In this document: in pieces, positions 13,990 through 37,340 of the stretch
Numbering within the stretch: the stretch's first letter is position 1
How the letters are laid out: each line of letters starts with the position of its first letter
NCBI GenBank assembly: GCA_024398475.1
Contig: JAKSJB010000011.1
Coordinates: 1 to 64,000 of the forward strand
DNA from: Bacteroidaceae bacterium
GTDB lineage: Bacteria > Bacteroidota > Bacteroidia > Bacteroidales > Bacteroidaceae
Reading direction: 5' to 3'
Length of the DNA: 64,000 nucleotides
Translations under genes and position numbers: made by a program
The notes under the pieces: generated by a model
Database searches by the model: none
What the model was told of the DNA's origin: nothing
The model's input: the letters and a program-made list of their open reading frames with translations, nothing else

Positions 13990-14802
13990 ATGAAGGCTAA
14001 AAAGATTCTTTTCATTACAACAGAAATGGTTCCTTTCGTATCGGAGAACTTCTGTTCGCTTAGGGGCAAAAACCTTCCGCAGTCCATTCAGGACCTTGGA
14101 CATGAAATCAGAACGTTCTCCCCCGACTGGGGAATCATCAATGAAAGAAGGAACCAGTTGCATGAAGTAATCCGTCTTTCAGGAATGAATCTGATAATTG
14201 ACGATACGGACCATCCGCTTATCATAAAGGTTGCATCCCTGCAATCTGCCCGTATGCAGATATATTTTATCGACAACGAGGATTTCTTCACTCACAGAGG
14301 TATCAAGGCAGATGAGAACGGCAACGAATATGATGACAACGGTGAACGTGCAATTTTCTATGCCCGTGGAGTCCTTGAAACAGTAAAGAAACTCCGTTGG
14401 ACTCCTGACGTGATACATTGCCATGGCTGGGCATCGGCTATTGCACCTCTGCTGATAAAGAAGGCATATTGTGATGAACCTTCATTTGCAGAAACAAAGG
14501 TCGTGTTCTCCACTGCAGCCGATGAACTCAAGTCCGATATGGGCGAACGATTCGTACGCAGTATCCCGTTCCGTGACATCACTACCGATGATGTTGCCGA
14601 CATCTGTACAGATAAGTGCGACTATACCGGATTGGCAAAAATTGCGGTAAAATTTGCCGACGGTCTTATTCTTGAGGACTCAAAGGTATCAAAGGACATC
14701 ATAGAATATGCTAAGTCATTGGGCAAGCCAGTACTGAAGGCGCAGAAGGAAGAAGACTATGCAAAGGCCTACAGCGAATTCTATGAGACTTTGATGGATT
14801 AG
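13990..14802 (+). CDS. Glycogen/starch synthase N-terminal-like protein (GT5-like)
   Basis: A 270-residue protein that resembles only the N-terminal Rossmann half of glycogen synthase. It starts KKILFITTEMVPFVSE, in place of the usual ADP-glucose-binding KxGGL loop, and keeps DVIHCHGW, the HxHxW-type element of the family. The C-terminal nucleotide-sugar domain is absent (about 480 residues in full synthases), so catalysis by itself is doubtful. Short homologues next to a DUF4270 lipoprotein gene are common in Bacteroidales. A conserved accessory role is likely, with the function unknown. It starts an operon with the next gene. Confidence 0.75.
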   Translation: MKAKKILFITTEMVPFVSENFCSLRGKNLPQSIQDLGHEIRTFSPDWGIINERRNQLHEVIRLSGMNLIIDDTDHPLIIKVASLQSARMQIYFIDNEDFFTHRGIKADENGNEYDDNGERAIFYARGVLETVKKLRWTPDVIHCHGWASAIAPLLIKKAYCDEPSFAETKVVFSTAADELKSDMGERFVRSIPFRDITTDDVADICTDKCDYTGLAKIAVKFADGLILEDSKVSKDIIEYAKSLGKPVLKAQKEEDYAKAYSEFYETLMD

Positions 14803-16247: not shown

Positions 16248-16280
16248 TGTAAGTTTTCCATCGAACAGAAAATATAGTTA

Positions 16281-16321
16281 GACTGCAGTGAAAAATATCT
16301 TTTGCTGCAGTCTTTTTTTTT
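16281..16321 (+). terminator. Terminator of the DUF4270 operon
   Basis: GACTGCAG (16281-16288) pairs with CTGCAGTC (16305-16312), followed by nine T. Confidence 0.85.
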
Positions 16322-16416: not shown

Positions 16417-16424
16417 TATATTTG
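16417..16424 (+). promoter_or_regulatory. -7 promoter element with a long leader for the multi-CBM gene
   Basis: TATATTTG followed by CAA fits the consensus. The leader to 16782 is about 350 bases, without a supported gene. It ends with three ATTAACCA-type words (16708-16770), a sequence also found before the next esterase gene. The length suggests post-transcriptional control, which I cannot identify. Confidence 0.5.
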
Positions 16425-16781
16425 CAACATCTAAAGGTGGCATAGGTGCATTTTGCCGTCGTGTGTTACATATTCAAAAGTATTTGATACATGTCAAAAC
16501 GCAGAAAAGACGACTTTTGCCTTACTTTGCAACCGAGAAGAAGTCTGAACGGTCAGAGCGCAGGAAAATATGAATGAACGGTGATGACTACACCTTATTA
16601 TATATATAATATAGCGCTTTTGAAACCGCAGAATGGAAATTCTACTATCAGTCCATAGAAAAGACAATACCTAAGGCATATCATTTAAATGACCAAAAGG
16701 AATATAATTAACCAATGAACAATTGACAACAAACAATTTTATTATTAACCATTTTTTATTAACCAATTAATTTCAAAGCTT

Positions 16782-19700
16782 ATGAAGAAATTATTAACGC
16801 TTGCTTTGGCACTTTGCACTGGCGTTTCTGCTTTCGCTCAAGGATGGACTCCATCTGAGGCTGACGAAGGTACAGATGTTACAGAAAAACTCGGTGTCAA
16901 GGCTGCCGATTCTGGTTCTGACCAAGAAGTCAAGTCTGCAACAAACGAAGGTAGCGTTTGGAAGGGATTTGACTACACTCAGTCAGAAAAAAAGAACGAC
17001 AACGACTACCCTAAGTATGAGTATCTGTCTTACGATTGCCACACATGGGGTATCTACGGTGTTGATACTTGGGACGTTTATCAGGATCTTGATAACGTAC
17101 CAGCAGGTATCTACACAATGTCACTCGAGGCATTGTATCGTGGCGGTCAGCTCGGTACAGTAATTGCTAAGTATGATGCTGGTATGCCAGTAAAGAACAC
17201 TAAGATTTATGTTCAGATTGGCGATCAGGTTTTTGAAGAGTATGTAAAGGACATCTGTGTCGGTCGTTTCAAGGGACAGACTGCAGAAGACGGAACTACA
17301 ACAGGACTCTATGTTACATCTGACGGCGCTTGGGGCTCAGACGAAAAGCAAGGTAATTGGTACTATCCAGTATCACACGGCGGTTTCTCTGCTTACCTTG
17401 ATGCCCAATGCGACGGTGTGTCATATGACAACTCAGGTCTGTTCTCAATGTACCACAATGCAATACAATTCATCGTACCTACAGATGGTACAACAGTAAG
17501 AATCGGTATCAAGCACGAAACTCCTATCGCTGAAGATTCATCTGCTTGGGATCACTGGAGAATTTTCTATGACTACGCTTATGACGAAGAAGGACTTGCT
17601 AAGGTTGCTTACGCTAAGTACGAGAAGGTATGGAACGCAATGGATGCTTTCTATCAGGAAACTCTTGAAAATTATCCGGCTCTCGGTGAACTCATTGGAG
17701 ATGATTTGATGGAAATTGAACAAAGCGTTGACGAAGACGATGCTGAAAGTATCTATGCTGCAATCGATGCTCTCAACGCAGTTGAGGCTAAGTACTTGGA
17801 AGCTCTCATTACCATCAAGTCAATGGACTACCTCGTTGCTGTATCTCAGTCACTCATCGACTGTGAAAACCGTTATGAAGAATGTGATAAGGAAGCATTG
17901 AAGACTGCTATCGAAAATGCTGAGACAGCAATCAATGCTACTCTCGGTGAGGCAGGTATTGAATCAATCGATGACTATATTACTGCAGCTAAGGCCCTCT
18001 ACAAGGCACGTGTTGACTATATCTGGTCTGGTGAAGAACATACAGGTGCAGACGGTACAGCATGGCGCGACGTTTCAGGTATCGTAGCATGTTCAGGTCT
18101 CGTAAACGAAAAATATACTCCATATTATGATGCAGAAACCGGAGAATATCGTTATCCACAGGAAATCGAAGATTCTTGGACAATGTATCATCCAAATGAT
18201 GGAGCTAACACAGAAATTGAAACTGGCTATATCAATAACCGTATCAAGGTTGAGGATTATCCTGAACTTGAAGGTAAGATGATGCCGGCACTTGCAAACG
18301 AGGCTAAGTGGTCTTATGACGTAACTGACGTAAACCGTTGGGTTTATGATGGTACTTCATTCAAGGGTGCTGTAACTCCTGCTGCTACTACATATAAGTG
18401 GTATAAGGGTTATTCTGCACACTATGGTGGTTGGACTGCTAGTCCTAACGAAGGTGAACTCAAGTTCTTCCAGACAATTACTGACCTTCCAGAAGGTTAC
18501 TACTCAGTTGAAGGCCGTATGATCAGCAACAAGGGTCAGGGTTCTGCAGACGACATCAAGCAGTATCTCTTCATCCAGGGTGTGAACGAAGACGGAACTG
18601 TTGACGAAGAGTCTAAGTACGAAAAGCAGAATGCAACAAACTGGGGTAGCTATACCCGTCAGGATTGGGAGATCGGTGAAACAGACATGATTCGTCTCAG
18701 TGTAGGTCAGAACCTCGTTATCGGTTACAGCCAGAACTGTGAAGCTGCTGACGGTGGTGTTATCCTCAAGTTCTACGGAACAGACGTAAACTTCCCTCAG
18801 CTTACTGAAGAAGCAAAGCAGAAGGTTGTCTCTCTCCTTGAGCAGAATGAAGAGAACTTCAAGTTGCTTGGCGATAAACCAGCTGTTGAGGCTCTCCTTG
18901 CTCAGGTAACTCCTGCATCTGTAAGTGATGACCCAGGATTCAAGGCTGCTAAGGATATCCTTGCAGAAGCTACAGACTTCATTAAGGCTGCTGCTGCTTA
19001 CAATTTCAATACTCAGGCTGATTATCTTGAACTCCAGGCTCAATATACAAGCCAGAAGGAAGCTTCTATCCTTGCAGTAGCTGCAGCATACGTAGATGCT
19101 CTTGCTGAAAACGCAACTTCTATATATAAGGATGGTCAGGCTGCAGATGCTATGTATAAGGCTTATGCTTCATACATGAAGACATTTGATCAGGCTGAAA
19201 AACTTGCTACTGAAGAAATCAATGGTATTCTTGCAAATCAGGCTGCTAACCTTACAAATTATTGTGATGATGCTTCAGTTCTTGCTCAGTATGAACTTGA
19301 CCTGAAGAACCCTATCTATAAGGCAATCTTCGCAAATCTCCACACAGAGGAAGCTACTGAAGCAAACCCTGTAGAGATTACAGTCGTTCTTGCTAACCCT
19401 TCATTCACAGAAGGTGTTGATGGTTGGGACGGAACTAAACCTTCACAGAATGAGTATGCAAATGGTAATGCAGAAATCTGGAACCAGACTACAGTTGATA
19501 TGTATCAGAAGTTCCAGGGACTCCCTGCAGGTAAGTATAAGGTAACTGCTCAGGCTCTCTATCGTGACGGTGCAGGTTCTGCAGGTCTTGCAACTTGCTA
19601 CAAGAACTGGCAGGCTGCTAATGGCGACAAGGAAGCTTGGAATGCCGTTAACAATTACAATGCAGTTCTATATGCTAAGTCTGGTAGATACGAAGGTAAG

Positions 19701-21842
19701 GATCTTATCAATTCAGTTTGTGATACTAAGGAAACAGGTATTTCATTCGATACATTCTATGTAATCGAAGACAAGGGTTATCCAAATGACGGTAAATTCC
19801 TGCTCTATAATCAGATTACAGAAGAAGACCTTCCTTATGCTGAGGATTATGCAACAAAGTATGTCCTTGAAAACGAAGATGGTACTAAGGGTGATGCATT
19901 CCAGTATCCATTCGACGGTCGTGTAGATCTCGAAGACGGAACTTCTCTCTTCTTCCCTGAATCAATGGCAGGCGCAGCTCTCCGTTTCGCTCAGGATGAA
20001 TATAAGGTTGAAGCATCAGTAAATGTATTGCCAGGTGAAGACCTTCAGTTAGGTATCCGTAAGGATGCTGGTGTTTCTGGCGACTGGATTATCTTCGACA
20101 ACTTCCAGCTCTGGTACCTCGGTCCAATCGACGAATCTACTCCAGAACCAAATCCATCAGCTAACCTCATTGCTGACGAGGAATCATACAACTTCAATAA
20201 GGCAGAGGTTAAGATTGAAGAAGTTTGGGGCAACAAGCAATATCACGTTGGAAACTGGGCTATGACTTGGAATAATAATGGTGGCAAAGCTACCGTTGAT
20301 TTGGTTGAGCCAGGTTACAACAAGAGTGCAAAGGCTTTGAAATTATCTAATCCTGAAGCAGGTGAATTCGTTTATTCTGCACAGTTGGAGAATAGTACTT
20401 TGACATCTCCATTACTTAAGGGTCACAACTATGTAGCTAAGTTCTATGCAAAGGCTGATGCTGAAGGAACAGAATTCCAGTTCAGCGCTGAAGCAGCTTG
20501 GGAAGCAAATGTAAGCAAGTACCAGTTCGGTGAAACAGTATCTTTGACAACAGATTGGAAGGAATATACTATCAATATCTGTGTTCCTGATGGTACTGAA
20601 GACGGTGCTGATGCAAGTCTTGCATACGAAGACCTCACTGCAGTCAAGTTCAACTTCGGTTTCATGACAGGTACAGCTTATGTTGACCGTGTATTGGTAT
20701 ACGATGCTCGTGAAGAAATCAATCCAGAAGGTAACCTTATCTATGATGACGAATCATTCGCATTCAATGGTGGTACTACAGGTAACTGGAAGATGAATGG
20801 TTGGAACAATCAGGGTACAGTTGCTGCTGTAGAACCAGGTTGGAACGGAAGTGCATACGCTCTTGAACTTACTCCTAATGGCAAGGCTGGTCAGAACTAC
20901 GAAGCTCAGGTTCCTAATACTTCAGTTGGAACTATGGAAGTTGGTAAGTCTTACAAACTCTCATTCTATGCTAAGGCTGAAAACGAAGGTGCTGAAATCG
21001 AATTCGGTGCACAACTTTCTCCTTGGGCTGCAGGTAATAAGGAATGGAACGGCAACATGTTCGCTCTTACTACTGAATGGGCTGCATACTCTATCGAAAT
21101 GACTGTTACAGATGATTATCCAGCAGCAGGTCTCAACTGTCTCTACATCAACTTCGGTAAGACTGATGGTAAGGCTTATGTTGACCACATCGTTCTCGAA
21201 GAAGTTATCCCAGCAGAGGTTTACTCAGAAGATAACATGCTCGACGAGGCTTCATTCGGCTTCGAAGACGGTACAGTAGGTCAGTGGCACTACCTCGCTT
21301 GGAACAACGCCGGTACATTCGCTAATGCTGCACCTGGTTATGGTAGTGAAGGTTCTATGGTACTTGCAAGCAACAACTCAGCAGGTGATCCATGGAGTGC
21401 TCAGCTCCTTTGCCCACTCAAGACTCCAGTTATGAGAGGCGGTGAATATCAGATTACATTCTATGCTAAGTGCGATGCTGAAAATGAAGGCGACTTCATC
21501 AACCCTGGTATTGCTAAGGCTTATCCTGAGCCTGAATGGAATACTGCTGAAAATGCAGTTCTTACTAAGGAATGGCAGAAGTTCACTTACACTCTCGTTG
21601 CAGATGAAAGCAATACTGCAGAAGATGGTAACAGCAACTTCTACTTCAACCATGGTAAGTTGACAGGTAATGCTTATGTTGACCGTGTAACAGTTATCTG
21701 TACAAAGAACCCTGAAACTGCAATCAACGGTGTTGAAATCAACAAGGCTTCTTCTGTTCGCTACAACCTCAATGGTCAGGCAGTTGGTTCAGACTATAAG
21801 GGTACTGTAATTGAAGGTGGCAAGAAGTTCATCGTTAAGTAA
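16782..21842 (+). CDS. Giant secreted multi-CBM protein (1686 aa), no visible catalytic domain
   Basis: Signal peptide 1-20 ends FAQ. Residues about 50-265 form a beta-sandwich of galactose-binding type; 275-415 is helical (FIVAR-like); 430-668 is a second beta region; 675-845 is helical; 865-1113 is a third sandwich (NPSFTEGVDGWDG). Then come three tandem CBM4/9-like modules at about 1127-1310, 1317-1475 and 1484-1640, each starting with a Leu/Ile-x-D-E-x-F/Y pattern, carrying a WNN segment and ending in AYVDRV or AYVDHI. The last 40 residues (RYNLNGQAVGSDYKG then GKKFIVK) resemble a type IX secretion sorting tail. No glycosidase or esterase motif was seen. Codon bias suggests high expression. 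It probably anchors xylan at the cell surface; the binding target is inferred from neighbours. Confidence 0.8.
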   Translation: MKKLLTLALALCTGVSAFAQGWTPSEADEGTDVTEKLGVKAADSGSDQEVKSATNEGSVWKGFDYTQSEKKNDNDYPKYEYLSYDCHTWGIYGVDTWDVYQDLDNVPAGIYTMSLEALYRGGQLGTVIAKYDAGMPVKNTKIYVQIGDQVFEEYVKDICVGRFKGQTAEDGTTTGLYVTSDGAWGSDEKQGNWYYPVSHGGFSAYLDAQCDGVSYDNSGLFSMYHNAIQFIVPTDGTTVRIGIKHETPIAEDSSAWDHWRIFYDYAYDEEGLAKVAYAKYEKVWNAMDAFYQETLENYPALGELIGDDLMEIEQSVDEDDAESIYAAIDALNAVEAKYLEALITIKSMDYLVAVSQSLIDCENRYEECDKEALKTAIENAETAINATLGEAGIESIDDYITAAKALYKARVDYIWSGEEHTGADGTAWRDVSGIVACSGLVNEKYTPYYDAETGEYRYPQEIEDSWTMYHPNDGANTEIETGYINNRIKVEDYPELEGKMMPALANEAKWSYDVTDVNRWVYDGTSFKGAVTPAATTYKWYKGYSAHYGGWTASPNEGELKFFQTITDLPEGYYSVEGRMISNKGQGSADDIKQYLFIQGVNEDGTVDEESKYEKQNATNWGSYTRQDWEIGETDMIRLSVGQNLVIGYSQNCEAADGGVILKFYGTDVNFPQLTEEAKQKVVSLLEQNEENFKLLGDKPAVEALLAQVTPASVSDDPGFKAAKDILAEATDFIKAAAAYNFNTQADYLELQAQYTSQKEASILAVAAAYVDALAENATSIYKDGQAADAMYKAYASYMKTFDQAEKLATEEINGILANQAANLTNYCDDASVLAQYELDLKNPIYKAIFANLHTEEATEANPVEITVVLANPSFTEGVDGWDGTKPSQNEYANGNAEIWNQTTVDMYQKFQGLPAGKYKVTAQALYRDGAGSAGLATCYKNWQAANGDKEAWNAVNNYNAVLYAKSGRYEGKDLINSVCDTKETGISFDTFYVIEDKGYPNDGKFLLYNQITEEDLPYAEDYATKYVLENEDGTKGDAFQYPFDGRVDLEDGTSLFFPESMAGAALRFAQDEYKVEASVNVLPGEDLQLGIRKDAGVSGDWIIFDNFQLWYLGPIDESTPEPNPSANLIADEESYNFNKAEVKIEEVWGNKQYHVGNWAMTWNNNGGKATVDLVEPGYNKSAKALKLSNPEAGEFVYSAQLENSTLTSPLLKGHNYVAKFYAKADAEGTEFQFSAEAAWEANVSKYQFGETVSLTTDWKEYTINICVPDGTEDGADASLAYEDLTAVKFNFGFMTGTAYVDRVLVYDAREEINPEGNLIYDDESFAFNGGTTGNWKMNGWNNQGTVAAVEPGWNGSAYALELTPNGKAGQNYEAQVPNTSVGTMEVGKSYKLSFYAKAENEGAEIEFGAQLSPWAAGNKEWNGNMFALTTEWAAYSIEMTVTDDYPAAGLNCLYINFGKTDGKAYVDHIVLEEVIPAEVYSEDNMLDEASFGFEDGTVGQWHYLAWNNAGTFANAAPGYGSEGSMVLASNNSAGDPWSAQLLCPLKTPVMRGGEYQITFYAKCDAENEGDFINPGIAKAYPEPEWNTAENAVLTKEWQKFTYTLVADESNTAEDGNSNFYFNHGKLTGNAYVDRVTVICTKNPETAINGVEINKASSVRYNLNGQAVGSDYKGTVIEGGKKFIVK

Positions 21843-21883
21843 TCAACGATTAGGTTGGTAACAACCAATCAGATAATATTAAG

Positions 21884-21915
21884 GACGCTGCTCAGTTTGG
21901 GCAGCGTCTTTTTTT
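21884..21915 (+). terminator. Terminator of the multi-CBM gene
   Basis: GACGCTGC (21884-21891) pairs with GCAGCGTC (21901-21908), then a T run. Confidence 0.88.
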
Positions 21916-22019: not shown

Positions 22020-23141
<1,122 letters not shown>

Positions 23142-23264
23142 AAAGATATACAAGTTTCGCTGGGCTCAACTTTTTAGTAGAAAAGTAGTCAGGAGACAGT
23201 AGTTAAGTAGGATGGATGTGGCTGAATATGCAAATCAGCAACCAAGAAATGAAGCAACCCATGT

Positions 23265-23312
23265 AATCAAACTACTACTTAACTCCTTAAACTCCAAAAC
23301 TACTTAACTTCT
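23265..23312. repeat. ACTACTTAACTC-word array
   Basis: Imperfect copies of AACTACTTAACTCC occur at 23265-23312. Inverted words (CAGTAGTTAAGTAG) occur about 80 bases upstream, at 23196-23209, so the two blocks can pair. The 218-base interval 23142-23359 has no gene. Confidence 0.55.
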
Positions 23313-23359
23313 GAAACTGAGCATGTCAGAAACTTGCGAAAGTTGAAAAATGATATTAT

Positions 23360-24586
23360 ATGAAAAAAACGATAATCATGGCTATTGTTGCATTGGGTGT
23401 TTCGACTTTGACACTCAATGCAAAGCCACGCAATTATTTTAAGGAGTTGGGATACTCCAAGAAGGAAATCAATGCCAAGATTCAGGCTGCATTCCATGAA
23501 GTGTTTGAAAGCGAACGCAGCGCATACAAGAATGTTGGTGATACTCTTGGATATGTATCCGACGTGAAGAACCATGATGTAAGAACTGAAGGTCAGTCCT
23601 ACGGTATGATGGTTGCTGTTCAGTTGGACAAGCAGGACATCTTTAACCGTATTTGGCGTTGGTCAAAACTCTACATGCAGGTAAAGGACGGACCACGCAA
23701 GGGATTGTTCGACTGGTCAGTCGCTCCTGATGGGGTTTCACGCCGTGCCCGCGGTTCTGCCAGTGATGGTGAACTGTATTTCGTTACAGACCTTCTACTT
23801 GCTTCACGCCGTTGGGGCAATAAGGGCGAAATCAATTATCTGAAGGAGGCTCAGACATTGCTCAACGACCTCTTCTCAAAGGATGGCTCAAATGGTGTTA
23901 CCAACATCATCAACATGGAGCATAAGATGATTAACTTCTGTCCTGACACTCGTTCCAATGAATGGACAGACCCTTCATATCATCTTCCTGCATTCTTTGA
24001 AATCTGGGCTGAGAGTGCACAGGACGGTCGTGAAGACCTTTACCGTGAACTTGCAGATAATGCGCGCAAGTTCCTCCATACATGCTGTGACGAAAAGAGT
24101 GGTATCAACCCTGATCAGTGTGGTTTCGACGGTAAGGTTACATCAACGCGTGGTTTCTTCGGCTACAACATGGGTGCTGAATTCCACTATGATTCCTGGC
24201 GTGTGCCAATGAATATTGCTATGGACTATACTTGGTATGGTAAGGACAAGGAATGGCAGAAGCAGTATGCTGATAAGTTCCAGACTACCATGGCAGGTTA
24301 CGGTATCAAGGAATTCCCTGACCAGTTCGGACTTGATGGTGGTAAGCCAAATGCTATTATGGGTGCAGGTGGTTTCCAGAAACTCCGCCACTCAATTGGT
24401 TTGGTAGGTACAACGGCTGCAGCAAGTCTGATGACTGATAATCAGTACAGTAAGGATTTTGTACGCCATCTTTGGGAAATGAAACTTGAACCATACGAGG
24501 ATGGATACTATGATGTATATTACGACGGATTGGTTTATCTCTTCTCTCTGCTTCATCTCAGCGGTCAGTACAGATGTAATTGGTAG
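23360..24586 (+). CDS. GH8 reducing-end xylose-releasing exo-oligoxylanase
   Basis: A 408-residue enzyme with an N-terminal signal (MKKTIIMAIVALGV, cleaved near LNA). The GH8 general acid is Glu77 in RTEGQSYGMM, ASDGELYF is the substrate-binding segment near residue 134, and FHYDSWRVPMN carries Asp278, equivalent to the base of Rex-type enzymes. Rex enzymes remove xylose from the reducing end of short xylo-oligosaccharides. Endo-xylanase or chitosanase activity, other options in GH8, is less likely given this motif set and the xylan context. It sits between a CE1 esterase and a GH43. Probably periplasmic. Confidence 0.9.
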   Translation: MKKTIIMAIVALGVSTLTLNAKPRNYFKELGYSKKEINAKIQAAFHEVFESERSAYKNVGDTLGYVSDVKNHDVRTEGQSYGMMVAVQLDKQDIFNRIWRWSKLYMQVKDGPRKGLFDWSVAPDGVSRRARGSASDGELYFVTDLLLASRRWGNKGEINYLKEAQTLLNDLFSKDGSNGVTNIINMEHKMINFCPDTRSNEWTDPSYHLPAFFEIWAESAQDGREDLYRELADNARKFLHTCCDEKSGINPDQCGFDGKVTSTRGFFGYNMGAEFHYDSWRVPMNIAMDYTWYGKDKEWQKQYADKFQTTMAGYGIKEFPDQFGLDGGKPNAIMGAGGFQKLRHSIGLVGTTAAASLMTDNQYSKDFVRHLWEMKLEPYEDGYYDVYYDGLVYLFSLLHLSGQYRCNW

Positions 24587-24589
24587 TAA

Positions 24590-24712
24590 TTGCCTTTAGC
24601 CATTAGCCATTAGCCATTAGCTTTTAGCTATTGGCCATTGGCTCTTTCGAGTTTTCGATAAATCGATTTTTCGAGAAATCGTGCCAAGGGCTAAAGGCTA
24701 ATGGCAATATTA
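24590..24712. repeat. TTAGCCATTAGCC array with inverted partner
   Basis: Six or more CCATTAGC/CTATTGGCC words (24590-24645) are followed by a TTCGATAAATCGATTTTTCG segment (about 24653-24672) and then by the inverse words GGGCTAAAGGCTAATGGCAA (24689-24708). The block could fold on itself. The interval 24587-24934 has no supported gene. Confidence 0.65.
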
Positions 24713-24804
24713 AATAATATGCTATTTGATTGTCTATTATGACTTTCAAATAGCATTTTTTTCATATAATACATTTACTTCGGCTCAATAACCGTTTTTT
24801 TTCG

Positions 24805-24812
24805 TATATTTG
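24805..24812 (+). promoter_or_regulatory. -7 promoter element for the GH43-CBM6 gene
   Basis: TATATTTG followed by CAG. The leader to 24935 ends in AACAAACCAATT directly before the ATG. Confidence 0.6.
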
Positions 24813-24934
24813 CAGAGGATTTTAATATCAAAGGCATAAATCCAATCATTGGTACAGCTGAAGTCTTATGACCTATGGCTGAATGCCAAATTAACTCGAA
24901 ACCAATATTAATCAATTACTTAAACAAACCAATT

Positions 24935-26272
24935 ATGAAAAGTAAACTATTATTAACGGCTTTAGCTTGTGGCACTTCGTTGTTATCATTTGCCCAGGAT
25001 CCAATTATCCAGACCAAGTATACTGCTGATCCTGCACCTATGGTACATGATGGTACGGTATATCTCTACACCACTCATGACGAGGACGATGCAGACGGTT
25101 TCAAGATGCTTGACTGGCTCCTCTATTCCTCTACCGATATGGTGAACTGGACTGACCACGGTGCTGTTGCTTCGCTCAAGGACTTCAAATGGATTGACAA
25201 AACCAACGGCGCATGGGCTGAACAGGTTGTTTATCGTAACGGTAAGTACTACATGTATTGCCCTATTCATGGTAATGGTATAGGTGTTCTTGTAAGCGAT
25301 ACTCCTTACGGACCGTTCAAGGATCCTCTCGGTCATGCACTCGTATGGCAGAAGGAACATTGGAACGACATTGACCCAACTGTTTGGATTGACGATGACG
25401 GTCAGGCATATATGTACTGGGGTAATCCTATACTTTATCACATCAAACTCAACGAGGACATGATTTCCACAAGCGGCGAAATCGTTGCCCATCCACATAT
25501 CGAAGACTATCAGGAAGGACCATGGTTCTACAAGCGCAATGGCCACTATTATTTGGCATTTGCTTCTACATGCTGCCCTGAAGGTATTGGCTATGCAATG
25601 AGTGACAGTCCTGAAGGTCCATGGGAATATAAGGGACACATAATGAACCATACTCCACGTACCCGTGGAAACCATCCTGGAATCATTGATTTCGAAGGAA
25701 AGAGTTATGTCTTCGGCCTGAACTATGACCTGCTCCGTATTGAAACTCAGAAGCATCATGAACGCCGAAGTGTTTCATACGCAGAAATGCATTATAATGC
25801 AGATGGAACCATTCAGGAAGTTCCTTATTTCAAGGATAACGTGAACAAGCAACTCCATTGGGTAAATCCGTTCAATAGGGTTGAGGCTGAAACTATGGCA
25901 TGGGGCTATGGACTGAAAACAGGTATTGATGCAAAACTTGCCCAGGGCGCAAAACCTGGTGTATTCGTTACAAATATTGATGATGACGAGACTCTGCTCG
26001 TGAAGGGTGTCGATTTCGGTAAGGGTGCCAAGAAATTCTATGCTTCAATTGCTTCTGTAAAGAAGGCTGAAATTGAGGTGCGAATTGATTCTAAGGACGG
26101 TCCAAAGATTGCTGAACTGAAGATAAAGTCCACAGGTGGCAAGGATGTCTATAAACTCATGCAGGCAAAGGTGAAGAAAGTGGCAGGCGTACACGACCTT
26201 TATTTCTGCTTCGACGATGCCGATCAGGGCGATAAAGACCTCTTCAACTTTGATTTTTGGTACTTCAAATAA
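24935..26272 (+). CDS. GH43-CBM6 arabinoxylan arabinofuranosidase or beta-xylosidase
   Basis: A 445-residue secreted enzyme. The ATG at 24935 is chosen because the signal peptide MKSKLLLTALACGTSLLSFAQ starts there. The five-bladed GH43 propeller has Asp32 (TADPAP), Asp147 (NDIDPTVWIDDDG) and Glu194 (YQEGPWFYKRNG) as base, pKa modulator and acid. Residues about 320-445 form a CBM6-like module (NRVEAETMAWG through LFNFDFWYF). This layout is typical of arabinoxylan arabinofuranohydrolases, but beta-xylosidases share it. It is closely related to the second half of the 736-residue protein at 37430. Confidence 0.88.
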   Translation: MKSKLLLTALACGTSLLSFAQDPIIQTKYTADPAPMVHDGTVYLYTTHDEDDADGFKMLDWLLYSSTDMVNWTDHGAVASLKDFKWIDKTNGAWAEQVVYRNGKYYMYCPIHGNGIGVLVSDTPYGPFKDPLGHALVWQKEHWNDIDPTVWIDDDGQAYMYWGNPILYHIKLNEDMISTSGEIVAHPHIEDYQEGPWFYKRNGHYYLAFASTCCPEGIGYAMSDSPEGPWEYKGHIMNHTPRTRGNHPGIIDFEGKSYVFGLNYDLLRIETQKHHERRSVSYAEMHYNADGTIQEVPYFKDNVNKQLHWVNPFNRVEAETMAWGYGLKTGIDAKLAQGAKPGVFVTNIDDDETLLVKGVDFGKGAKKFYASIASVKKAEIEVRIDSKDGPKIAELKIKSTGGKDVYKLMQAKVKKVAGVHDLYFCFDDADQGDKDLFNFDFWYFK

Positions 26273-26275
26273 AAA

Positions 26276-26348
26276 TCGATAGTTGTTATAGTCGTTATAG
26301 TTTCTATAGCTTCTATAACCGCTATAATATCTATAAATGCTATAGTTT
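26276..26348. repeat. 9-base TATAG-word tandem array
   Basis: Eight imperfect 9-base units of the type TATAGTCGT, TATAGTTTC, TATAGCTTC, TATAACCGC run between the GH43 stop and the GH31 start. A related array lies at 13433-13467. Confidence 0.65.
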
Positions 26349-26368
26349 GAAAACAAAAAATAATGATT

Positions 26369-28546
26369 ATGAAGAAAATCAGTTTTATATTTCTTTGCCT
26401 TGTCTGCTTGGGACAGGTTGCAATGGCTCAGAAACCAACAGTTACTATACTGTCGGAATCCGCAGTTAATGTAAAGTACGATGGTAAGGCACCTGCCGAT
26501 CAGCCAAAGAAATGGAAGACTTCCAGAATGCAAGTGGAATACAAGTCAAAAACAGGACAGATTATTGTTAAGAACAGTAAGGGAAAGGTGGTGATGCAGA
26601 CTAAGGGCGCACCGCAGGCATCTTCTTACGGCAAGGCACTCACACTCATCAGTCCTGTCGATGAATACCTCTACGGTACAGGACAGTTTCAGGACGGCAA
26701 CCTCAATGTACGCGGACTGACACGCCGACTTACTCAGGTAAACACACAGATTTCCATACCATTCATCCTTTCAAGCAAGGGATACGGTCTGCTTTGGAAC
26801 AATACCGGCATGACCGACTTCAATCCTGCCGACAACGTGATTGTCCTGAAGGAAGACAATGGCGAAGCAGGACAAGGTGAACTGGTCAATGTGACCAGTA
26901 CCACCGGTAACCGTCAGGAACGCCGTATGTATCAGTCTTTCACAGGTACGCTCAATGTTCCGCAGGATGGGGACTATGCGCTTCTACTCGATGTGGGGCA
27001 GTCAATGGCCCGCAAGCATTATCTGGCAATAGATGGCAAACCAGTTGTCGATATCAACAACACATGGCTTCCGCCTACGGTAGCACAAAAGGTCAGTCTC
27101 AAAGCCGGCTCTCACAACGTCGAGGTGCGTGGCGTACGTGGTGACAAGCCGTCAGTTTACTGGCGTCTGTCCGACAATACCACAACCTTCCGCTCTCCAC
27201 TTGGTGATGTCGATTTCACCGTTTTCGTCGGTTCAGCCGATGAAGTGATTGCCGAATACCGTCACCAGACTGGTGAAGTACCTATGCTGCCAGAGTGGGC
27301 ACTCGGTTATATCCATTGCCGCGAGCGTTTCCATTCACAGGATGAGATACTTGAGACCGTACGTGAGTTCAAGCGCCGCAACATTCCTATCAGCATGATA
27401 GTACAGGACTGGCAGTATTGGGGCAAGTACGGCTGGAATGCAATGCGTTTCGACGAAGACCACTATCCAGACCCTAAAAAGATGATTGACGAACTCCACA
27501 AGATGGGTGTGCGCTTCATGCTTTCGGTTTGGGCAAAGGTCGATGTCAATTCCGAACTCGGAAAGGAATTTACATCAAAGGGCTATTACATCAAGAATAC
27601 TGACTGGATTGACATGTTCAACCAGGAGGCTGCCGATGCATATTGCAAGGCACAGCGTGAGCGTCTCGCCACTCTCGGTATCGATGGTTGGTGGCAGGAT
27701 GCGACTGAACCTGAGAACGATGACCTCAAAGGCCGTATGGTCAATAACGGCAAACTCTCCGGTGATGTAGTCCGCAATATGTTTGCTTACAAAGTTAACG
27801 AGAATGTCTTCAAGTCGCTTAAGGAATATAATCTGTCACAGGGTATTCAGGACAATCCGTTCATCCTCACCCGCAGCGCATCGCAGGGTATCCAGAAGTT
27901 TGGCGTTGCCGTTTGGTCGGGTGATGTCGGCAACGATTGGGAAACCCTTCGCCGTCAGATTGTCGGCGGACTCGGACTTGTATCTACCGGTCTGCCTTGG
28001 TGGACGTACGATGCAGGTGGTTTCTTCCGTCCAGGCAATCAATATACCGATGCTGCATATCAGGAACGCATGATTCGCTGGATTCAGGCAAGTGTATTCC
28101 TTCCATTGATGCGTGTACATGGTTATCAGTCTGATACTGAACCTTGGCGTTACGGCAAGGAAACAGAAGAACTCTTTGCTGATGCCATACGTCTGCGTTA
28201 CAAACTGATGCCTTATATCAAGGAAACAGCGAAGAGGGTATCGACAGAAAACTACACTATGCTCCGTCCGTTGGTATTTGACTTTGCTGGTGACAGCGAG
28301 GCATTGAAACAGGATGGCGAATATATGTTCGGACCATCTTTGCTGGTACACCCTATAGTCGATGAAATGAGTGTGTCTTCAACGGTAAAAGTATATCTGC
28401 CTAAGTCAGACGGGGGTTGGAATGACTTCTGGACAAACCAACACTATGACGGCGGTCAGACTATAACTCTGCCGGTTACGATGGAGCATATTCCGGTATT
28501 CGTACGCGTATGTGAGGCTTCGCATATTGATGACATCAGTCGTTAG
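26369..28546 (+). CDS. GH31 alpha-xylosidase with PA14 insert
   Basis: A 725-residue secreted enzyme (signal ending VAMAQ). After the N-terminal beta-sandwich, residues about 170-275 form a PA14-like insert (QSFTGTLNVPQDGDYALLLD through VYWRLS). The GH31 barrel follows with the nucleophile Asp444 in DGWWQDATEPE and the acid/base Asp519 in VWSGDVGNDWE. The same PA14-inserted layout occurs in alpha-xylosidases that remove xylose from xyloglucan oligosaccharides, for example Cellvibrio Xyl31A. In this cluster it may act on xylose- or glucose-containing side chains. An ATG six bases upstream is an alternative start. It follows the GH43 closely. Confidence 0.87.
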   Translation: MKKISFIFLCLVCLGQVAMAQKPTVTILSESAVNVKYDGKAPADQPKKWKTSRMQVEYKSKTGQIIVKNSKGKVVMQTKGAPQASSYGKALTLISPVDEYLYGTGQFQDGNLNVRGLTRRLTQVNTQISIPFILSSKGYGLLWNNTGMTDFNPADNVIVLKEDNGEAGQGELVNVTSTTGNRQERRMYQSFTGTLNVPQDGDYALLLDVGQSMARKHYLAIDGKPVVDINNTWLPPTVAQKVSLKAGSHNVEVRGVRGDKPSVYWRLSDNTTTFRSPLGDVDFTVFVGSADEVIAEYRHQTGEVPMLPEWALGYIHCRERFHSQDEILETVREFKRRNIPISMIVQDWQYWGKYGWNAMRFDEDHYPDPKKMIDELHKMGVRFMLSVWAKVDVNSELGKEFTSKGYYIKNTDWIDMFNQEAADAYCKAQRERLATLGIDGWWQDATEPENDDLKGRMVNNGKLSGDVVRNMFAYKVNENVFKSLKEYNLSQGIQDNPFILTRSASQGIQKFGVAVWSGDVGNDWETLRRQIVGGLGLVSTGLPWWTYDAGGFFRPGNQYTDAAYQERMIRWIQASVFLPLMRVHGYQSDTEPWRYGKETEELFADAIRLRYKLMPYIKETAKRVSTENYTMLRPLVFDFAGDSEALKQDGEYMFGPSLLVHPIVDEMSVSSTVKVYLPKSDGGWNDFWTNQHYDGGQTITLPVTMEHIPVFVRVCEASHIDDISR

Positions 28547-28625
28547 TTTTTTCGAGTGAACAAGCCGACAGGCAACGTTCATGACTAATGGCTGAAAACA
28601 AATAAAACCTTAACTTAACTTGACA

Positions 28626-30632
28626 ATGAAACAATTCAAATTATTATTAATCTTGTCTGCATTGACATTGTGCGCCAATGTCAATGCTTACAAGAAAACG
28701 AGTGTAGATATCAACGTAAACGGTCAGTCGCGCAACATGGTTGTATTTACTCCTAACGCACTTTCCGAGGGGTTGCCACTAATGCTTGTCACACATGGTA
28801 TGAATCAGGATCCTGAATATCAGTACGGTGCTGACAAGATGTATGAACTTATTGATACAGCCAAGTTTGTCATAGCCTATCTCAGGGGGATTGACAAAAG
28901 CTGGGACATGAGTGACGGCGGCAAGGACAAGAATTTCGTGTTGAAGGCCATAGACGAGATGGCCAGCCGTTACGGGGTAGATACCAACCGTGTGTATTGG
29001 TCGGGATTCTCAATGGGTTCCATGTTTATGTATGCTGTGATGGGTTCCATGACAGACAAAATTGCTGCCTTTGCACCTTGCAGCGGTATGATGGGGGATC
29101 CTTCCGGTAGTATCAAGAAGAAGATAAACCTTATCCACTGCCATGCCTACGGAGACGATGTTGTGGTGTATAATCAGTTTAACATCAGAAATAATGTTAC
29201 AAAGATTGCAAACAACCTGAAATATACGCATTACACAAAACGTGCGAACTACAAGACAAAGAACGGTACATCGTGGTTCTCAGGTGACAGGGAAATGTGG
29301 ACAAATGACGAGGGTAATGAAATAGTACTCTATTCCTTCAACGTGGATTTCCACAATCCAATGGGTGAGAACAGTTATGAAATATGGAACTTCTGCAAAC
29401 GCTTCTCTCTTGATCCTAATATACCAAAAGTAAGTATTGTGTCTCCAAATACGGATGACAAATATACAAGGGTTGATACCATTAATGTTGAGATTGAAGC
29501 GTCTGATCCAGATGGCTATGTCGCAAGTATTGCGCTAATGATTGACGGCGCTAAAAAATGTACCGAGACATTTACTGAAGCATCTTCCGATGGCAAGTAT
29601 GCCTTGAACTATGTATGGATACGTCCTTCACAGGGAAATCATACCCTGAAGGTAGTGGCAACCGATAACGATGGGAAAACAAGGGATGTATCACGTTCTG
29701 TGACAATTGCAGATGCCGATCCTTTGACTATTGTCTCTTCTGATCCTGAGAATAATTCATTTGACTTACCTTTGGATTTCCGTACGTTTAATTTTACTTT
29801 TTCATATCCTATTGATTGCAGTAAGGTAAAGGCATCAATGTCGTTAGGTGGAAAGAACAGGTATTTTGATGTAGTGCAGACGGGTTTTTGTAAGGATGTT
29901 ACCTTCGTACTGCCTGATACGATTGAACTGGAAACAGGAAAACGTTCTTTGCGGCTGACAGGATTGAATGATAATCGTGGCGTTACTCTTACCACGCAGA
30001 CTTACCGATTTACTTTTGGCTACGCTGACGTGAATGATAAAGATGCCCCTTCCGATGTAAGGAAAATCAAAAAAGCCTTTTATGATGCGTATTCAACAGC
30101 AAGTGCAATATATGATTCCACTGCTGCAGAACGCTATCAATCGGCTGAATATCTTCGTGAACCAATAAAAGAACTTATTGATTTATATGCGGATTTTGCT
30201 TCAACATCTCCTTCAAGATGGAATGAGGCAACCGATACGTTGGCGTCTATAATTATTCCGCTTCAGACACGAAAGGAAAACCTGGACTTGTATTATGATA
30301 CTTACGAATATGCGTTGTCATTGATAAACCAATATGCAAATGATTCAACTGTCAATTCAAATAGTAGGTACACAAGACTGCAGAATGCTGTCAACTCTAC
30401 GATGTACAAACTGAAACCGGCTAATCTGATAAAGGATGACAAACTGATAACTGCTGCAAGCGGTTTGCAAAGATATATTGATCAGTTGCTCTCTCTGGTT
30501 ACATCTATCGGTAATGTTACGGTTGAAAGTCAATCGAATTTGCAGGAATACGATATACTTGGCCGTCCGGTAAAAGACAATTATAAGGGTATCGTCATAA
30601 TTAATGGCAAAAAAGTGGTGAAAGTGCATTGA
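28626..30632 (+). CDS. Multidomain secreted esterase (PHB depolymerase/CE1-like) with sorting tail
   Basis: A 668-residue protein. Signal 1-21; an alpha/beta-hydrolase of the LpqC/feruloyl esterase type at about 25-260 with Ser129 in GFSMGS, VTHGMNQDP for the oxyanion region and the late His in NVDFHNPMG. Then Ig-like domains at about 268-365 (DPDGYVASIALMIDG) and 366-465, a helical segment at 475-625, and a tail of about 35 residues (EYDILGRPVKDNYKG then INGKK) resembling that of the giant CBM protein. Likely an acetyl xylan or feruloyl esterase carried to the surface by type IX secretion (inference). A TTG six bases upstream is not preferred over this ATG. Confidence 0.78.
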   Translation: MKQFKLLLILSALTLCANVNAYKKTSVDINVNGQSRNMVVFTPNALSEGLPLMLVTHGMNQDPEYQYGADKMYELIDTAKFVIAYLRGIDKSWDMSDGGKDKNFVLKAIDEMASRYGVDTNRVYWSGFSMGSMFMYAVMGSMTDKIAAFAPCSGMMGDPSGSIKKKINLIHCHAYGDDVVVYNQFNIRNNVTKIANNLKYTHYTKRANYKTKNGTSWFSGDREMWTNDEGNEIVLYSFNVDFHNPMGENSYEIWNFCKRFSLDPNIPKVSIVSPNTDDKYTRVDTINVEIEASDPDGYVASIALMIDGAKKCTETFTEASSDGKYALNYVWIRPSQGNHTLKVVATDNDGKTRDVSRSVTIADADPLTIVSSDPENNSFDLPLDFRTFNFTFSYPIDCSKVKASMSLGGKNRYFDVVQTGFCKDVTFVLPDTIELETGKRSLRLTGLNDNRGVTLTTQTYRFTFGYADVNDKDAPSDVRKIKKAFYDAYSTASAIYDSTAAERYQSAEYLREPIKELIDLYADFASTSPSRWNEATDTLASIIIPLQTRKENLDLYYDTYEYALSLINQYANDSTVNSNSRYTRLQNAVNSTMYKLKPANLIKDDKLITAASGLQRYIDQLLSLVTSIGNVTVESQSNLQEYDILGRPVKDNYKGIVIINGKKVVKVH

Positions 30633-30708
30633 TGGATTAAACTTATAGCATAGATGTAAGTCTAAAGGACATCCAATTCAATATAATACTAATTAATTTA
30701 GAACAATT

Positions 30709-31656
30709 ATGAAGAAATTATTATTTACAGCACTTTGCGCGATGAACTGCGCATTTGGTTTTGCTCAGTTTGGTTTCGGTGGTTTTCAGATGCCGGAAGT
30801 GAAGCTGGAATGTGGTGAAAAGTTTACAGACATCAACTATGCGGGTGATGATCAGGCTTATCATACACTCGACATCTATCTCCCAAAAACTGAAGCTAAG
30901 ACTTATCCTGTAGTCATTCACATCTATGGTAGTGCATGGTTCAGTAACAGTTCAAAGGGAATGGCTGACCTCGGTACAATTGTAAACGCATTGCTCAAGG
31001 CTGGATATGCAGTAGTTTGTCCTAACCACCGTTCAAGCGGTGATGCCAAGTTCCCTGCACAGATCAATGATATTAAGGCTGTGGTACGTTTTGTACGCGG
31101 TGAAGCTGATAAGTATCATTTCGACAAGTCATTTATTGCTACATCTGGTTTCTCTTCTGGTGGTCATCTCTCAACTCTTACTGCTACTTCCGGAAATGTC
31201 AAGAGCCCGGTTAAAGTCGGCAATCTCGACGTCGATCTTGAAGGTAACATCGGTAAGTACCTCAATGAAAGCAGTGCTGTAAATGCTTGCTGTGATTGGT
31301 CTGGTCCAATTGATATGTTCAAGATGAACTGCGATGAACCTCGTAAGTGGGGTAACACTCCTGAAGAGGCTCTTGTAGGTCACAACTATGAAGATCAGTA
31401 TGCCGACAACTTCAAGTCAATCAGTGCAATTACATATATTGACAAGAATGACCCTCCAACTGTTATCTTCCATGGAACTGATGACAATGTTGTTCCTTGC
31501 TGTCAGGGCCAGGAACTCTATGATGAACTCACAAAGGCAGGGGTTAAATCTGAAGTTACAATTGTTCCAGGTGGTGGCCACGGCGTAAATATGTATGCTG
31601 AGGAAAACCTCACCAAGATGGTAAACTTCCTTAATTCAGTACGTAAGGGAAAGTAA
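30709..31656 (+). CDS. Secreted alpha/beta-hydrolase, acetylxylan/feruloyl esterase-like
   Basis: A 315-residue enzyme with signal 1-19 (CAFGFAQ). It belongs to the esterase/lipase type of alpha/beta-hydrolases: VVIHIYGSAWF is the oxyanion strand (a variant of HGGG), Ser150 lies in TSGFSSGGH, Asp in FHGTDDNVVP and His in GGGHGVNMY. The layout resembles the bifunctional acetylxylan/feruloyl esterase (BD-FAE) type described from rumen and gut Bacteroidota. It probably removes acetyl groups from xylo-oligosaccharides in the periplasm. Short Gly/Phe-rich segment after the signal (FGFGGF). Followed by a strong terminator. Confidence 0.85.
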   Translation: MKKLLFTALCAMNCAFGFAQFGFGGFQMPEVKLECGEKFTDINYAGDDQAYHTLDIYLPKTEAKTYPVVIHIYGSAWFSNSSKGMADLGTIVNALLKAGYAVVCPNHRSSGDAKFPAQINDIKAVVRFVRGEADKYHFDKSFIATSGFSSGGHLSTLTATSGNVKSPVKVGNLDVDLEGNIGKYLNESSAVNACCDWSGPIDMFKMNCDEPRKWGNTPEEALVGHNYEDQYADNFKSISAITYIDKNDPPTVIFHGTDDNVVPCCQGQELYDELTKAGVKSEVTIVPGGGHGVNMYAEENLTKMVNFLNSVRKGK

Positions 31657-31697
31657 TTTCAGCAAATTAAGTAAAAAACTCTTTTTCATAAATTATT

Positions 31698-31733
31698 AGA
31701 GTGGGGAACGTTATTATGTTCTCCACTCTTTGT
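31698..31733 (+). terminator. Terminator after the BD-FAE-like esterase
   Basis: AGAGTGGGGAAC pairs with GTTCTCCACTCT (one G-U), loop of eight bases. It may also stop adenine deaminase transcription from the other side. Confidence 0.75.
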
Positions 31734-31789
31734 GTATAATCCAAATCCGTCATTATAACACTACTGACCGATTTGGGTAATAAATACCT

Positions 31790-33457
31790 CTATTCTACTC
31801 CGACTGGTACGAATCCAAAGGATGTACCATCGAAAAGCCCCATATCGGTAAGCTTCAGTTTAGGAATCACAGGTAATGCCATGAAACTCATAGTCATGAA
31901 CGGTGATTCAAACTGGCAACCTATACGGAAGGATATGGCGAGGAGTTTGTCGAATCTGTAAGATACTTCTTCCGGACTCAATGGTGATATCAGTCCTGCT
32001 ACAGGGAGTGGAAGGTCGAAGATGGATTTGCCGTCATATACAGCAATACCGCCTTTGAGACCGATAATGTGGTTGATGAGTTTTACGATGGAAGCATCAT
32101 CGACTCCTACTGCAACAATGTTGTGGCTGTCGTGGGCAACTGTAGAACAGAGTGCTCCGACTTCCAGTCCGAAACCCTTGATGTAGGCTACCTGTGGTTT
32201 GGCAGGAGTATAGCGGTTATAGACTACGAGTTTCAGAATATCGTTATCCTTTCCGATTTCATCCTTGCTGATAATCAGTTCATCGGTAAGGAGAGTCCCT
32301 CCTTTTGCAACAATAACTCTAACCTTGTCAGTTGCGATGTCCAGTTTTATATCATCTTCGGTAATAGGCTGGGCATTAAACTTATTGATGTACGCTTTAT
32401 CGTCAGTATTCTGTGACACCTTGATGTTGCCGCCATAATAGGCTTTCAGTTCGATACTGTCCTTGCTGCTGAGATATTCTTCTCCACGTATCACAGTCTT
32501 GAGTATGTTCAAATCGGAGAGATTGTCTGCGAGGATAAAGTCTGCATTGTCGCCTTCCTGAAGCTGTCCGCAATCCAAATGGTAGTGTTCTACAGGTGTG
32601 ACACATGCTGCACGAAGTACATTCCAAAATGGATATCCCTTCTTAAGTGCTTTCTTTACGATGAGGTTTATATGCCCGTCCAAAAGTTCGTCTGGGTGTT
32701 TGTCATCGGAACAGAACATCAACATGTCCTTGCTTTCGGCAAGGAGTGGTGACAATGCTTCGAAATCCTGAGCTGCACTTCCGTTGCGGATGAGAATTTT
32801 CATGCCTAACTTCAGACGTTCACGACCTTCTTCTATAGTCGTGCATTCGTGGTCGGTAGAAACTCCGGCTTCAATATATTTCTTTAAGTCTTCACCTGTG
32901 AATTCCGGTGAATGTCCGTCGATAGGCTTACCATTATCTTTTGCTGCCTGAAGTTTTGCCATTACGTCGGGCAATCCCATAACGACTCCTGCTGCAAACA
33001 TGAATTCTGAAAGGTAACCGATGTCTTTGTCTTCCAGTAAGGCCCTTACTTCATCTGGTCCGAGAGTGGCTCCGGCTGTTTCAAATGTGGTTGATGGAAC
33101 GCAAGACGGTGCACCGAAACAGAAGTAGAAATTGGACTTCTTACCATTCTCTATCATGAATCGTACTCCATCCAGACCAAGTACATTGGCTATTTCGTGT
33201 GGGTCGGTAACGATACCTATTGTACCATGCCGCACGGCTGCCTTTGCAAAATTCTCTGGTAAAAGCATGCTGCTCTCAATATGAACGTGTGCATCAATAA
33301 ATCCTGGTAGTATATATGGCAGGGAATCATTGCAACCATTATCGGCATAGAAAGAGGTTGGTTCGATACTTACAATCTTGTTTTCTTCAATGGTGATTAT
33401 TCCATCAAAGATTTTTTCGTTCTTTATGTCAACAATGTGACCGGAGTATTTTTTCAT
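31790..33457 (-). CDS. ade: Adenine deaminase
   Basis: A 555-residue amidohydrolase-superfamily enzyme converting adenine to hypoxanthine and ammonia for purine salvage. The metal-binding HVHIESS is at residues 57-63 (the AdeC-type pattern), IGIVTDPHEIANVLG follows, and CSDDKHPDEL lies further on. Length is normal. The start at 33457 is chosen because the aligned region begins MKKYSGHIVD and the promoter box lies at 33486, inside the longer frame. It is the only minus-strand gene within the xylan cluster and has no evident link to polysaccharide use, so the cluster may have grown by joining two blocks around it. Confidence 0.95.
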   Translation of the reverse strand: MKKYSGHIVDIKNEKIFDGIITIEENKIVSIEPTSFYADNGCNDSLPYILPGFIDAHVHIESSMLLPENFAKAAVRHGTIGIVTDPHEIANVLGLDGVRFMIENGKKSNFYFCFGAPSCVPSTTFETAGATLGPDEVRALLEDKDIGYLSEFMFAAGVVMGLPDVMAKLQAAKDNGKPIDGHSPEFTGEDLKKYIEAGVSTDHECTTIEEGRERLKLGMKILIRNGSAAQDFEALSPLLAESKDMLMFCSDDKHPDELLDGHINLIVKKALKKGYPFWNVLRAACVTPVEHYHLDCGQLQEGDNADFILADNLSDLNILKTVIRGEEYLSSKDSIELKAYYGGNIKVSQNTDDKAYINKFNAQPITEDDIKLDIATDKVRVIVAKGGTLLTDELIISKDEIGKDNDILKLVVYNRYTPAKPQVAYIKGFGLEVGALCSTVAHDSHNIVAVGVDDASIVKLINHIIGLKGGIAVYDGKSIFDLPLPVAGLISPLSPEEVSYRFDKLLAISFRIGCQFESPFMTMSFMALPVIPKLKLTDMGLFDGTSFGFVPVGVE

Positions 33458-33485
33458 AATATGTTTTGGGATTTGATTGTGAATG

Positions 33486-33493
33486 CAAATGTA
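33486..33493 (-). promoter_or_regulatory. -7 promoter element for ade
   Basis: TACATTTG followed by C on the minus strand, 29 bases before the ATG. Confidence 0.55.
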
Positions 33494-33566
33494 AAGATTT
33501 ATTTTGTTTTCGTGCGTATTTCCTTTAACTTTTTCTGTTTTAGTTTCTTTTTTCATGATTTATTCA

Positions 33567-33574
33567 TAACTTTG
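33567..33574 (+). promoter_or_regulatory. -7 promoter element for the second CE1 esterase gene
   Basis: TAACTTTG followed by CA. Leader of about 60 bases to the ATG at 33642, ending in AATTAATCATAAATTT. Confidence 0.6.
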
Positions 33575-33641
33575 CAATGAAATATATCATGCAGACATAG
33601 GTCAACAAGAACAATTGTCAAATCAAATTAATCATAAATTT

Positions 33642-34718: not shown

Positions 34719-34748
34719 AACTAATTTGCAGATTAATATTAGGATCAT

Positions 34749-34790
34749 GTTCCTCTATCGAAATAATAGTCGATAGGGGAACTTGTTCTT
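34749..34790 (+). terminator. Terminator of the second CE1 esterase gene
   Basis: GTTCCTCTATCG (34749-34760) pairs with CGATAGGGGAAC (34771-34782) with one G-U pair, then a T-rich stretch. Confidence 0.82.
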
Positions 34791-37328: not shown

Positions 37329-37340
37329 TTAGTTATTCGG

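Follow-up and report, generated by a model that had tools for sequence, protein, structure and literature searches.

An enzyme-free, multi-module secreted protein beside a Bacteroidaceae xylan-debranching cluster: a candidate surface-held hemicellulose-binding protein

Introduction

How rumen and hindgut Bacteroidota hold plant fibre is commonly attributed to SusC/SusD loci, in which the glycan-binding proteins are lipoproteins. A 64-kb stretch of DNA from a herbivore-gut Bacteroidaceae bacterium, analysed here as a whole and referred to as the window, raises the question of what is done by a 1686-residue protein that is encoded beside xylan-debranching genes and contains no recognizable enzyme. 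An initial annotation of this DNA had proposed a polysaccharide trap or scaffold that takes the place of SusD-type proteins. We followed up that proposal with profile comparisons, also against solved structures, and with analyses of codon usage and gene neighbourhoods.

Results

An open reading frame scan of the window identified the gene at 16782-21842 (forward strand) as a single ATG-initiated frame of 1686 amino acids, exactly where the initial annotation had placed it, and Pfam and NCBIfam searches describe the product as a secreted, enzyme-free, multi-module protein. The N-terminus reads MKKLLTLALALCTGVSAFA, followed by predicted cleavage before Q, and corresponds to a type I (signal-peptidase-I) leader that ends in SAFA and has no lipobox (16782-16838). 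With module borders set by alignment with relatives, the protein is made up of module A (residues 28-270; 16863-17591), linker H1 (residues 271-420; 17592-18041), module B (residues 421-670; 18042-18791), linker H2 (residues 671-866; 18792-19379), module C (residues 867-1116; 19380-20129), modules D1 (residues 1125-1311; 20154-20714), D2 (residues 1314-1478; 20721-21215) and D3 (residues 1481-1645; 21222-21716), and a C-terminal tail (residues 1647-1686; 21720-21839), all on the forward strand. Both linkers are predicted from their composition to be rich in alpha-helix, and the H1 region gave weak four-helix-bundle matches when the family profile was compared with the PDB. A search for DNA tandem repeats inside the gene found none.

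The three C-terminal modules are the best defined. PF02018 (CBM_4_9) matches the protein in three stretches with a total E of 1.2e-17 (Pfam, E up to 10), and a genome search places these matches at 20247-20597, 20763-21119 and 21258-21647, all three above the cut-off, as the proposal of three tandem CBM4/9 modules had it. Against the PDB, the D1-D3 profile matched CBM4 modules, with the laminarinase 1gui best (2.4e-7), then the xylanase entries 3jxs, 4bj0, 1k42 and 2y6j (2e-5 to 1e-4) and the GH10-associated entries 4qpw and 4mgs (0.002). The assignment of D1-D3 to CBM4/9 is secure from sequence, and beta-sandwich binding modules are predicted with confidence.

Modules A and C are homologous to one another (hhalign P 99.8%, E 7e-28), and B has only the core Q..LP.GYYS in common with C (hhalign P 84%); profile comparison revealed no sequence relation of A, B or C to the CBM4/9 modules D1-D3. 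The sole PDB matches of the A/C profile were the endo-galactanase entries 9fli (4e-4) and 2xom (8e-4), with partial coverage and with colinear W, Q..LPAG.Y and GDW.F.DDF.L motifs. We take both entries to be GH53 galactanases that bear CBM61, a module not known to bind xylan. No Pfam match above the cut-off was found in A or C. Comparison of the module B profile with the PDB yielded no credible solved relative; below threshold, Y_Y_Y matches module B in 14 of 32 family members, and DUF5013 likewise matches 22 of the 32. Positions at which all A and C copies agree carry W, Q, P, G, Y, Y, R, P, G, G and Y, and no acidic pair occurs among these residues or among those invariant in B. These comparisons suggest that A and C are likely, and B plausibly, beta-sandwich binding modules, and they make all three candidates for new carbohydrate-binding families.

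With regard to enzymatic activity, no catalytic family was detected in the protein, the E limits being 10 for Pfam and 0.1 for NCBIfam. Besides CBM_4_9, the permissive Pfam search shows two sub-threshold matches (Ig_J and Y_Y_Y), and no NCBIfam match lies above the cut-off. The absence of an enzyme motif, as initially annotated, therefore holds at permissive cut-offs, and the regions in which a catalytic site would have spoken against that annotation (residues 50-265, 430-668 and 865-1113) are negative by sequence. The description of the protein as composed of CBMs only is borne out for D1-D3 and for the lack of an enzyme family, and A and C are distantly CBM61-like; of the further beta-sandwich modules that had been proposed, at least three in number, A and C are fairly well supported by the CBM61-like profile and B is less so.

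The C-terminal tail (consensus IYNLAGQ.V...YKGIVI.NGKK.L.K in the tail alignment) matches 22 places in the genome at E up to 0.01; 20 of these were read, and in each a stop codon lies no more than three residues from the end of the match. One bearer is the esterase-Big_7 protein of the xylan cluster (28620-30632). Neither the open reading frame nor the tail matches TIGR04183 or PF18962, and the tail has no NCBIfam model match. In the comparison of the family profile with the PDB, 7jvi was matched over the tail region only; going by its label, this entry is presumably the CBM89-GH10 xylanase of PMC8810776. SprA is present at full length in the genome. A strict A-x-A-Q signal pattern occurs in 30 of 36 family members, and a lipobox in none (0/36). 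For one type A signal, the last 22 residues, comprising motifs D and E, are enough to have a reporter exported, and the conserved lysines of motif E matter (PMC10202324). We infer tail-dependent type IX export of the 1686-residue protein. What had been called a type IX-like tail is real, shared by at least 20 C-termini of the genome and accompanied by SprA, but it lies outside the TIGR04183 and NCBIfam models, which would make it a secretion signal, open to test, that escapes the standard type A model. Another open reading frame at a contig end of the window's genome (locus L041, 7688-9169; G000:C35), cut at its 5' end, is enzyme-free and combines the same tail with an LPVGLY-type module and a helical part; its CAI of 0.842 ranks third in the set of 98 genes described below.

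In order to gauge expression, we ranked 98 genes of at least 200 amino acids from eight regions of the genome by codon adaptation, taking the genes around its ribosomal-protein genes as reference. The gene at 16782-21842 ranked fourth (CAI 0.832, ENC 35.8; medians of the 98 genes 0.579 and 48.3), behind a GAPDH-like gene, PEPCK and one other tailed protein; several reference genes sit in the ranked set, so that any bias is in their favour. The very biased codons remarked on initially are thus confirmed. In other genomes, family genes have a median ENC of 40.2 (n=39) against 48.6 for other genes (n=297), with a p of 3e-14 that serves only as a guide, given the greater length of family genes and the kinship of the species. 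Codon bias, a mere proxy for abundance, suggests that the protein is among the most abundant of the cell. Within the neighbouring cluster, a secreted-looking protein of 252 amino acids (window 35084-35842) has a CAI of 0.759 and no Pfam match.

Terminator prediction found a hairpin of 14 pairs that belongs to the upstream gene (16280-16313, forward strand) and a second directly 3' of the gene (21881-21911, forward strand). Because these strong terminator-like sites bracket it, we regard the gene as a predicted transcription unit of its own and not as the first gene of a xylan operon. Across the family, a terminator-like site lies no more than 150 nt downstream of 18 of 31 family genes and 23 of 231 others (Fisher 4e-9, again a guide only, given gene length and species kinship). 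A candidate promoter, a Bacteroidota -7-like box TATATTTG found by consensus match only, lies at 16417-16424 (forward strand), 365 nt 5' of the start codon, and suggests a leader of ~350 nt. The esterase gene downstream has a box TATCTTTG of its own; given this box and the terminators, the place of the gene at the head of the xylan cluster, correct by position, is positional only. Membership of a xylan operon is not supported, as the gene has a terminator-like site of its own and the relative in genome G002 is followed by a pyrH-like gene. No Rfam element was found around the gene at the gathering score. The upstream regions of family genes showed no clear common operator; they do show an A/T-rich translation leader (TTATTAACCAATT), and adding the relative L044 to the motif search gives a promoter-like CTTTGCAACCG stretch. 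The leader, with TTATTAACCAATT right before the start, recurs at 16732-16765 of the window and upstream of other family genes, and a similar one precedes the esterase at 22035.

The xylan-debranching cluster (22035-39640) encodes a CE1 feruloyl esterase, GH8, GH43-CBM6, GH31, the esterase-Big_7 protein, BD-FAE, CE1, GH43-ricinB and GH43-CBM6-GH43, with an adenine deaminase on the other strand at 31790-33556 (Pfam/NCBIfam). The feruloyl esterase at 22035-23141 is 75% identical to the C-terminal esterase part of GH10-CE1 proteins in loci L043 and L063 and is without GH10, and a scan of cluster proteins revealed no GH10 either. Two further observations concern the window: a trio of related genes, FKBP-type by the Pfam match of one, near the cluster at 39864-42407 also occurs directly upstream of the family gene of genome G014 (L058, 5198-7757), and a 270-amino-acid protein at 13990-14802 resembles glycogen synthase over the N-terminal half of that enzyme only.

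The cluster does not have the make-up of a Sus-like PUL, as SusD_RagB is absent from the contig and HTCS are absent among the window proteins scanned; a SusC-type transporter was likewise not found among these proteins. Above the Pfam cut-off, the 1686-residue protein itself matches CBM_4_9 only. A genome-wide search, however, gave about ten SusD_RagB matches, none of them on this contig, and a family member of another species (L064) is the divergent neighbour of a SusC/SusD pair. SusD-type proteins and SGBPs are lipoproteins. As the genome retains SusD genes, a relative adjoins SusC/SusD and the family has no lipobox, the idea that the protein replaces SusD is not supported, and we rejected it. 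The scaffold role proposed alongside fares no better, since Pfam detects no cohesin or dockerin in the protein, although one relative in the same genus (L044, 2-3568; G001:C54) has a dockerin-I match after the core and, beyond it, another domain that the contig end truncates.

To place the protein in a wider context, we searched for related loci with a six-member alignment, which gave 33 loci; a single-protein query gave no match. Relatives occur in 15 of the 17 genomes of the genus, its own included, and the only other full-length relative with the CBM4/9 trio among them is that of G002 (55-58% identical). The remaining relatives in the genus match residues 1-1115 and are mostly proteins of 1100-1200 residues, some cut by contig ends; those with a known end close with the same tail. 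The genome also carries a family paralogue at C2:29392-32742. Of 399 genomes from the bacterial family, 113 have a match to a 16-row core profile at 1e-15, and full-length copies occur in genera g1, g15, g18, g20 and g23; weaker matches in other genera are partial and may stem from different proteins that have similar modules. The core (residues 1-1116) is covered by no Pfam or NCBIfam model, and we found no published description in the mainly open-access literature, which is weak evidence. On these comparisons, residues 1-1116 constitute a family, apparently undescribed, that has full-length members in five or more genera and the CBM4/9 trio as a rare extension. Extensions of the core vary, being the trio in the window gene and G002, dockerin-I in G001:C54, and at least one CBM4/9-like stretch before the contig end in a member at G001:C38. 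The named loci of the family are from MAGs of rumen, sheep, buffalo, deer and horse origin, including 'Candidatus Colivivens caballi' and 'Candidatus Minthosoma'. One contig (L090) is classified as Butyrivibrio but bears a family gene of Bacteroidales type and is probably misbinned.

Family genes have varied neighbours. Hemicellulose or xylan enzymes adjoin the window gene and the genes of L063 (HTCS and GH10-CE1), L092 (GH10-CE1), and L088 and L089 (GH5, SASA esterase, HTCS, GH97 and a GH31 homologue); the gene of L069 adjoins a BD-FAE homologue, and the paralogue in the same genome adjoins GH98. The gene downstream of the G002 relative is pyrH-like (by eye) and not a xylan gene, and for many members the surroundings consist of housekeeping genes. 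An HTCS divergently adjoins the family gene in 12 loci, which amount to ~6 independent contexts, several loci being syntenic. Pfam confirmed one of the 12 (L063: Y_Y_Y, HisKA, HATPase, receiver and HTH) and the others were assigned by similarity. The 11 of 12 that were compared form one subfamily, with a sensor identity of 31-85% against 20-23% to an unrelated HTCS. A single counterpart in the window's genome stands alone at C2:54146-58141 (L137, 14107-18144, corresponding to C2:54107-58144) and is 46% identical over its length; that it controls the window gene in trans is a guess.

Discussion

We consider it probable, on sequence evidence, that the 1686-residue protein is a non-catalytic, secreted and probably surface-held hemicellulose-binding protein that acts as a fibre trap next to debranching enzymes. 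The initially proposed polysaccharide trap remains the best available reading of the three CBM4/9 modules, the lack of an enzyme family, the signal peptide, the tail and the codon bias, while its ligand and surface location stay putative. Its short tail, which resembles the D and E motifs of type A signals, would take the protein across the outer membrane via the type IX system, after which it would be held at the cell surface. There, D1-D3 would bind xylan-type hemicellulose, and A, B and C, borne on helical spacers, may bind further cell-wall glycans; for A and C these might be chains of the galactan or arabinogalactan kind. Produced abundantly from a promoter of its own, the protein would coat the cell with fibre-binding sites, and this coat would keep the cell near the substrate of the next-door debranching enzymes and of SusC/SusD importers whose genes lie elsewhere. 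Control of the family gene in many relatives, and perhaps in trans here, would fall to a dedicated hybrid two-component sensor. Counting against the trap are the place of the G002 relative away from xylan genes, the housekeeping contexts, the negative TIGR04183 and NCBIfam results for the tail, the weak CBM61 similarity and the lack of a solved relative of B.

A broader proposal is that the family constitutes a new fibre-capture class, in which a non-lipoprotein, T9SS-exported and HTCS-controlled protein forms the dominant glycan-binding coat of herbivore-gut Bacteroidales beside SusC/SusD loci, its core carrying CBM4/9 or dockerin-like extensions. We put this forward tentatively, as a possibility that we would not yet bet on. 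If true, it would fill a gap in the picture of fibre holding by rumen and hindgut Bacteroidota with a widespread, strongly codon-biased family that lacks enzymes, has a sensor subfamily to itself and uses a different export signal.

The independent transcription unit, the pyrH-like gene after the G002 relative and the many members among housekeeping genes would also suit a general fibre adhesin or surface coat, serving attachment to plant particles or as a structural layer, not tied to any single polysaccharide pathway, with xylan genes as neighbours by chance; extreme codon bias befits a coat protein as well. We nevertheless think this unlikely, as the HTCS subfamily and hemicellulose enzymes recur nearby in several unrelated contexts and the CBM4/9 modules are nearest to glycan-binding modules borne by enzymes. 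Greater doubt attaches to an enzyme of an unknown family, in which B, or A and C, would have catalytic activity, such as that of a lyase or esterase, and would be targeted by the CBM4/9 modules. One could cite for it that B has no solved relative, that the core has no family model and that GH and CE genes lie nearby. Yet A and C match binding modules, neither their invariant residues nor those of B contain an acidic pair, and two near-copies with a shortened cousin resemble repeated binding modules; with no catalytic family in Pfam or NCBIfam, even at permissive cut-offs, we dropped this very improbable hypothesis. About as improbable is a scaffold that organizes the cluster enzymes on the surface in the manner of a cellulosome. 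Many similar modules on spacers, the dockerin-I match in L044 and the tail shared with a cluster enzyme would fit such a role, but the protein itself has neither a cohesin nor a dockerin match, and its modules resemble glycan-binding rather than protein-binding domains.

The putative fibre trap can be set beside several known systems. Its ligands, as we infer them, are xylan-type hemicellulose for D1-D3 and another cell-wall glycan for A-C. The W, Q..LPAG.Y and GDW.F.DDF.L motifs of A and C are also those of CBM61, the galactan-binding module of GH53 enzymes (2xom, 9fli); however, A and C are ~100 residues longer, with an insertion, have no enzyme attached and match with a profile E of merely ~4e-4 to 8e-4. 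GH10 xylanases with inserted tandem CBM4 modules (Xyn10C and Pm25; PMC7848910) likewise come from xylan loci of Bacteroidota and carry tandem CBM4 modules of the xylan-binding type, but there CBM4 interrupts the GH10 domain, whereas our protein has three consecutive CBM4/9 modules near its C-terminus and no catalytic domain. The T9SS multimodular enzymes of 'Candidatus Paraporphyromonas polyenzymogenes' (PMC5831590) are also large, secreted, modular plant-wall proteins of the rumen with a C-terminal sorting domain. They have catalytic domains and TIGR04183 tails in a genome without PULs, in contrast to the 1686-residue protein, which has no enzyme and no TIGR04183 match and whose genome has SusD genes elsewhere. 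With the Sus-like surface glycan-binding proteins (SusE/F, XusE/UNK and SGBP-B; CHU_1279, PMC12016534) it shares a non-catalytic nature, CBM-like modules and a role, putative here, in holding polysaccharide at the outer surface. One of them, UNK, is encoded in a xylan locus, the termite xus locus, and binds arabinoxylan (PMC7848910), but UNK is a predicted lipoprotein encoded with SusC/SusD, while the protein described here starts with a type I signal peptide, ends in a C-terminal tail, contains far more modules and is encoded in a transcription unit of its own. The most fitting description is that of a so far undescribed variant among enzyme-free surface glycan-binding proteins.
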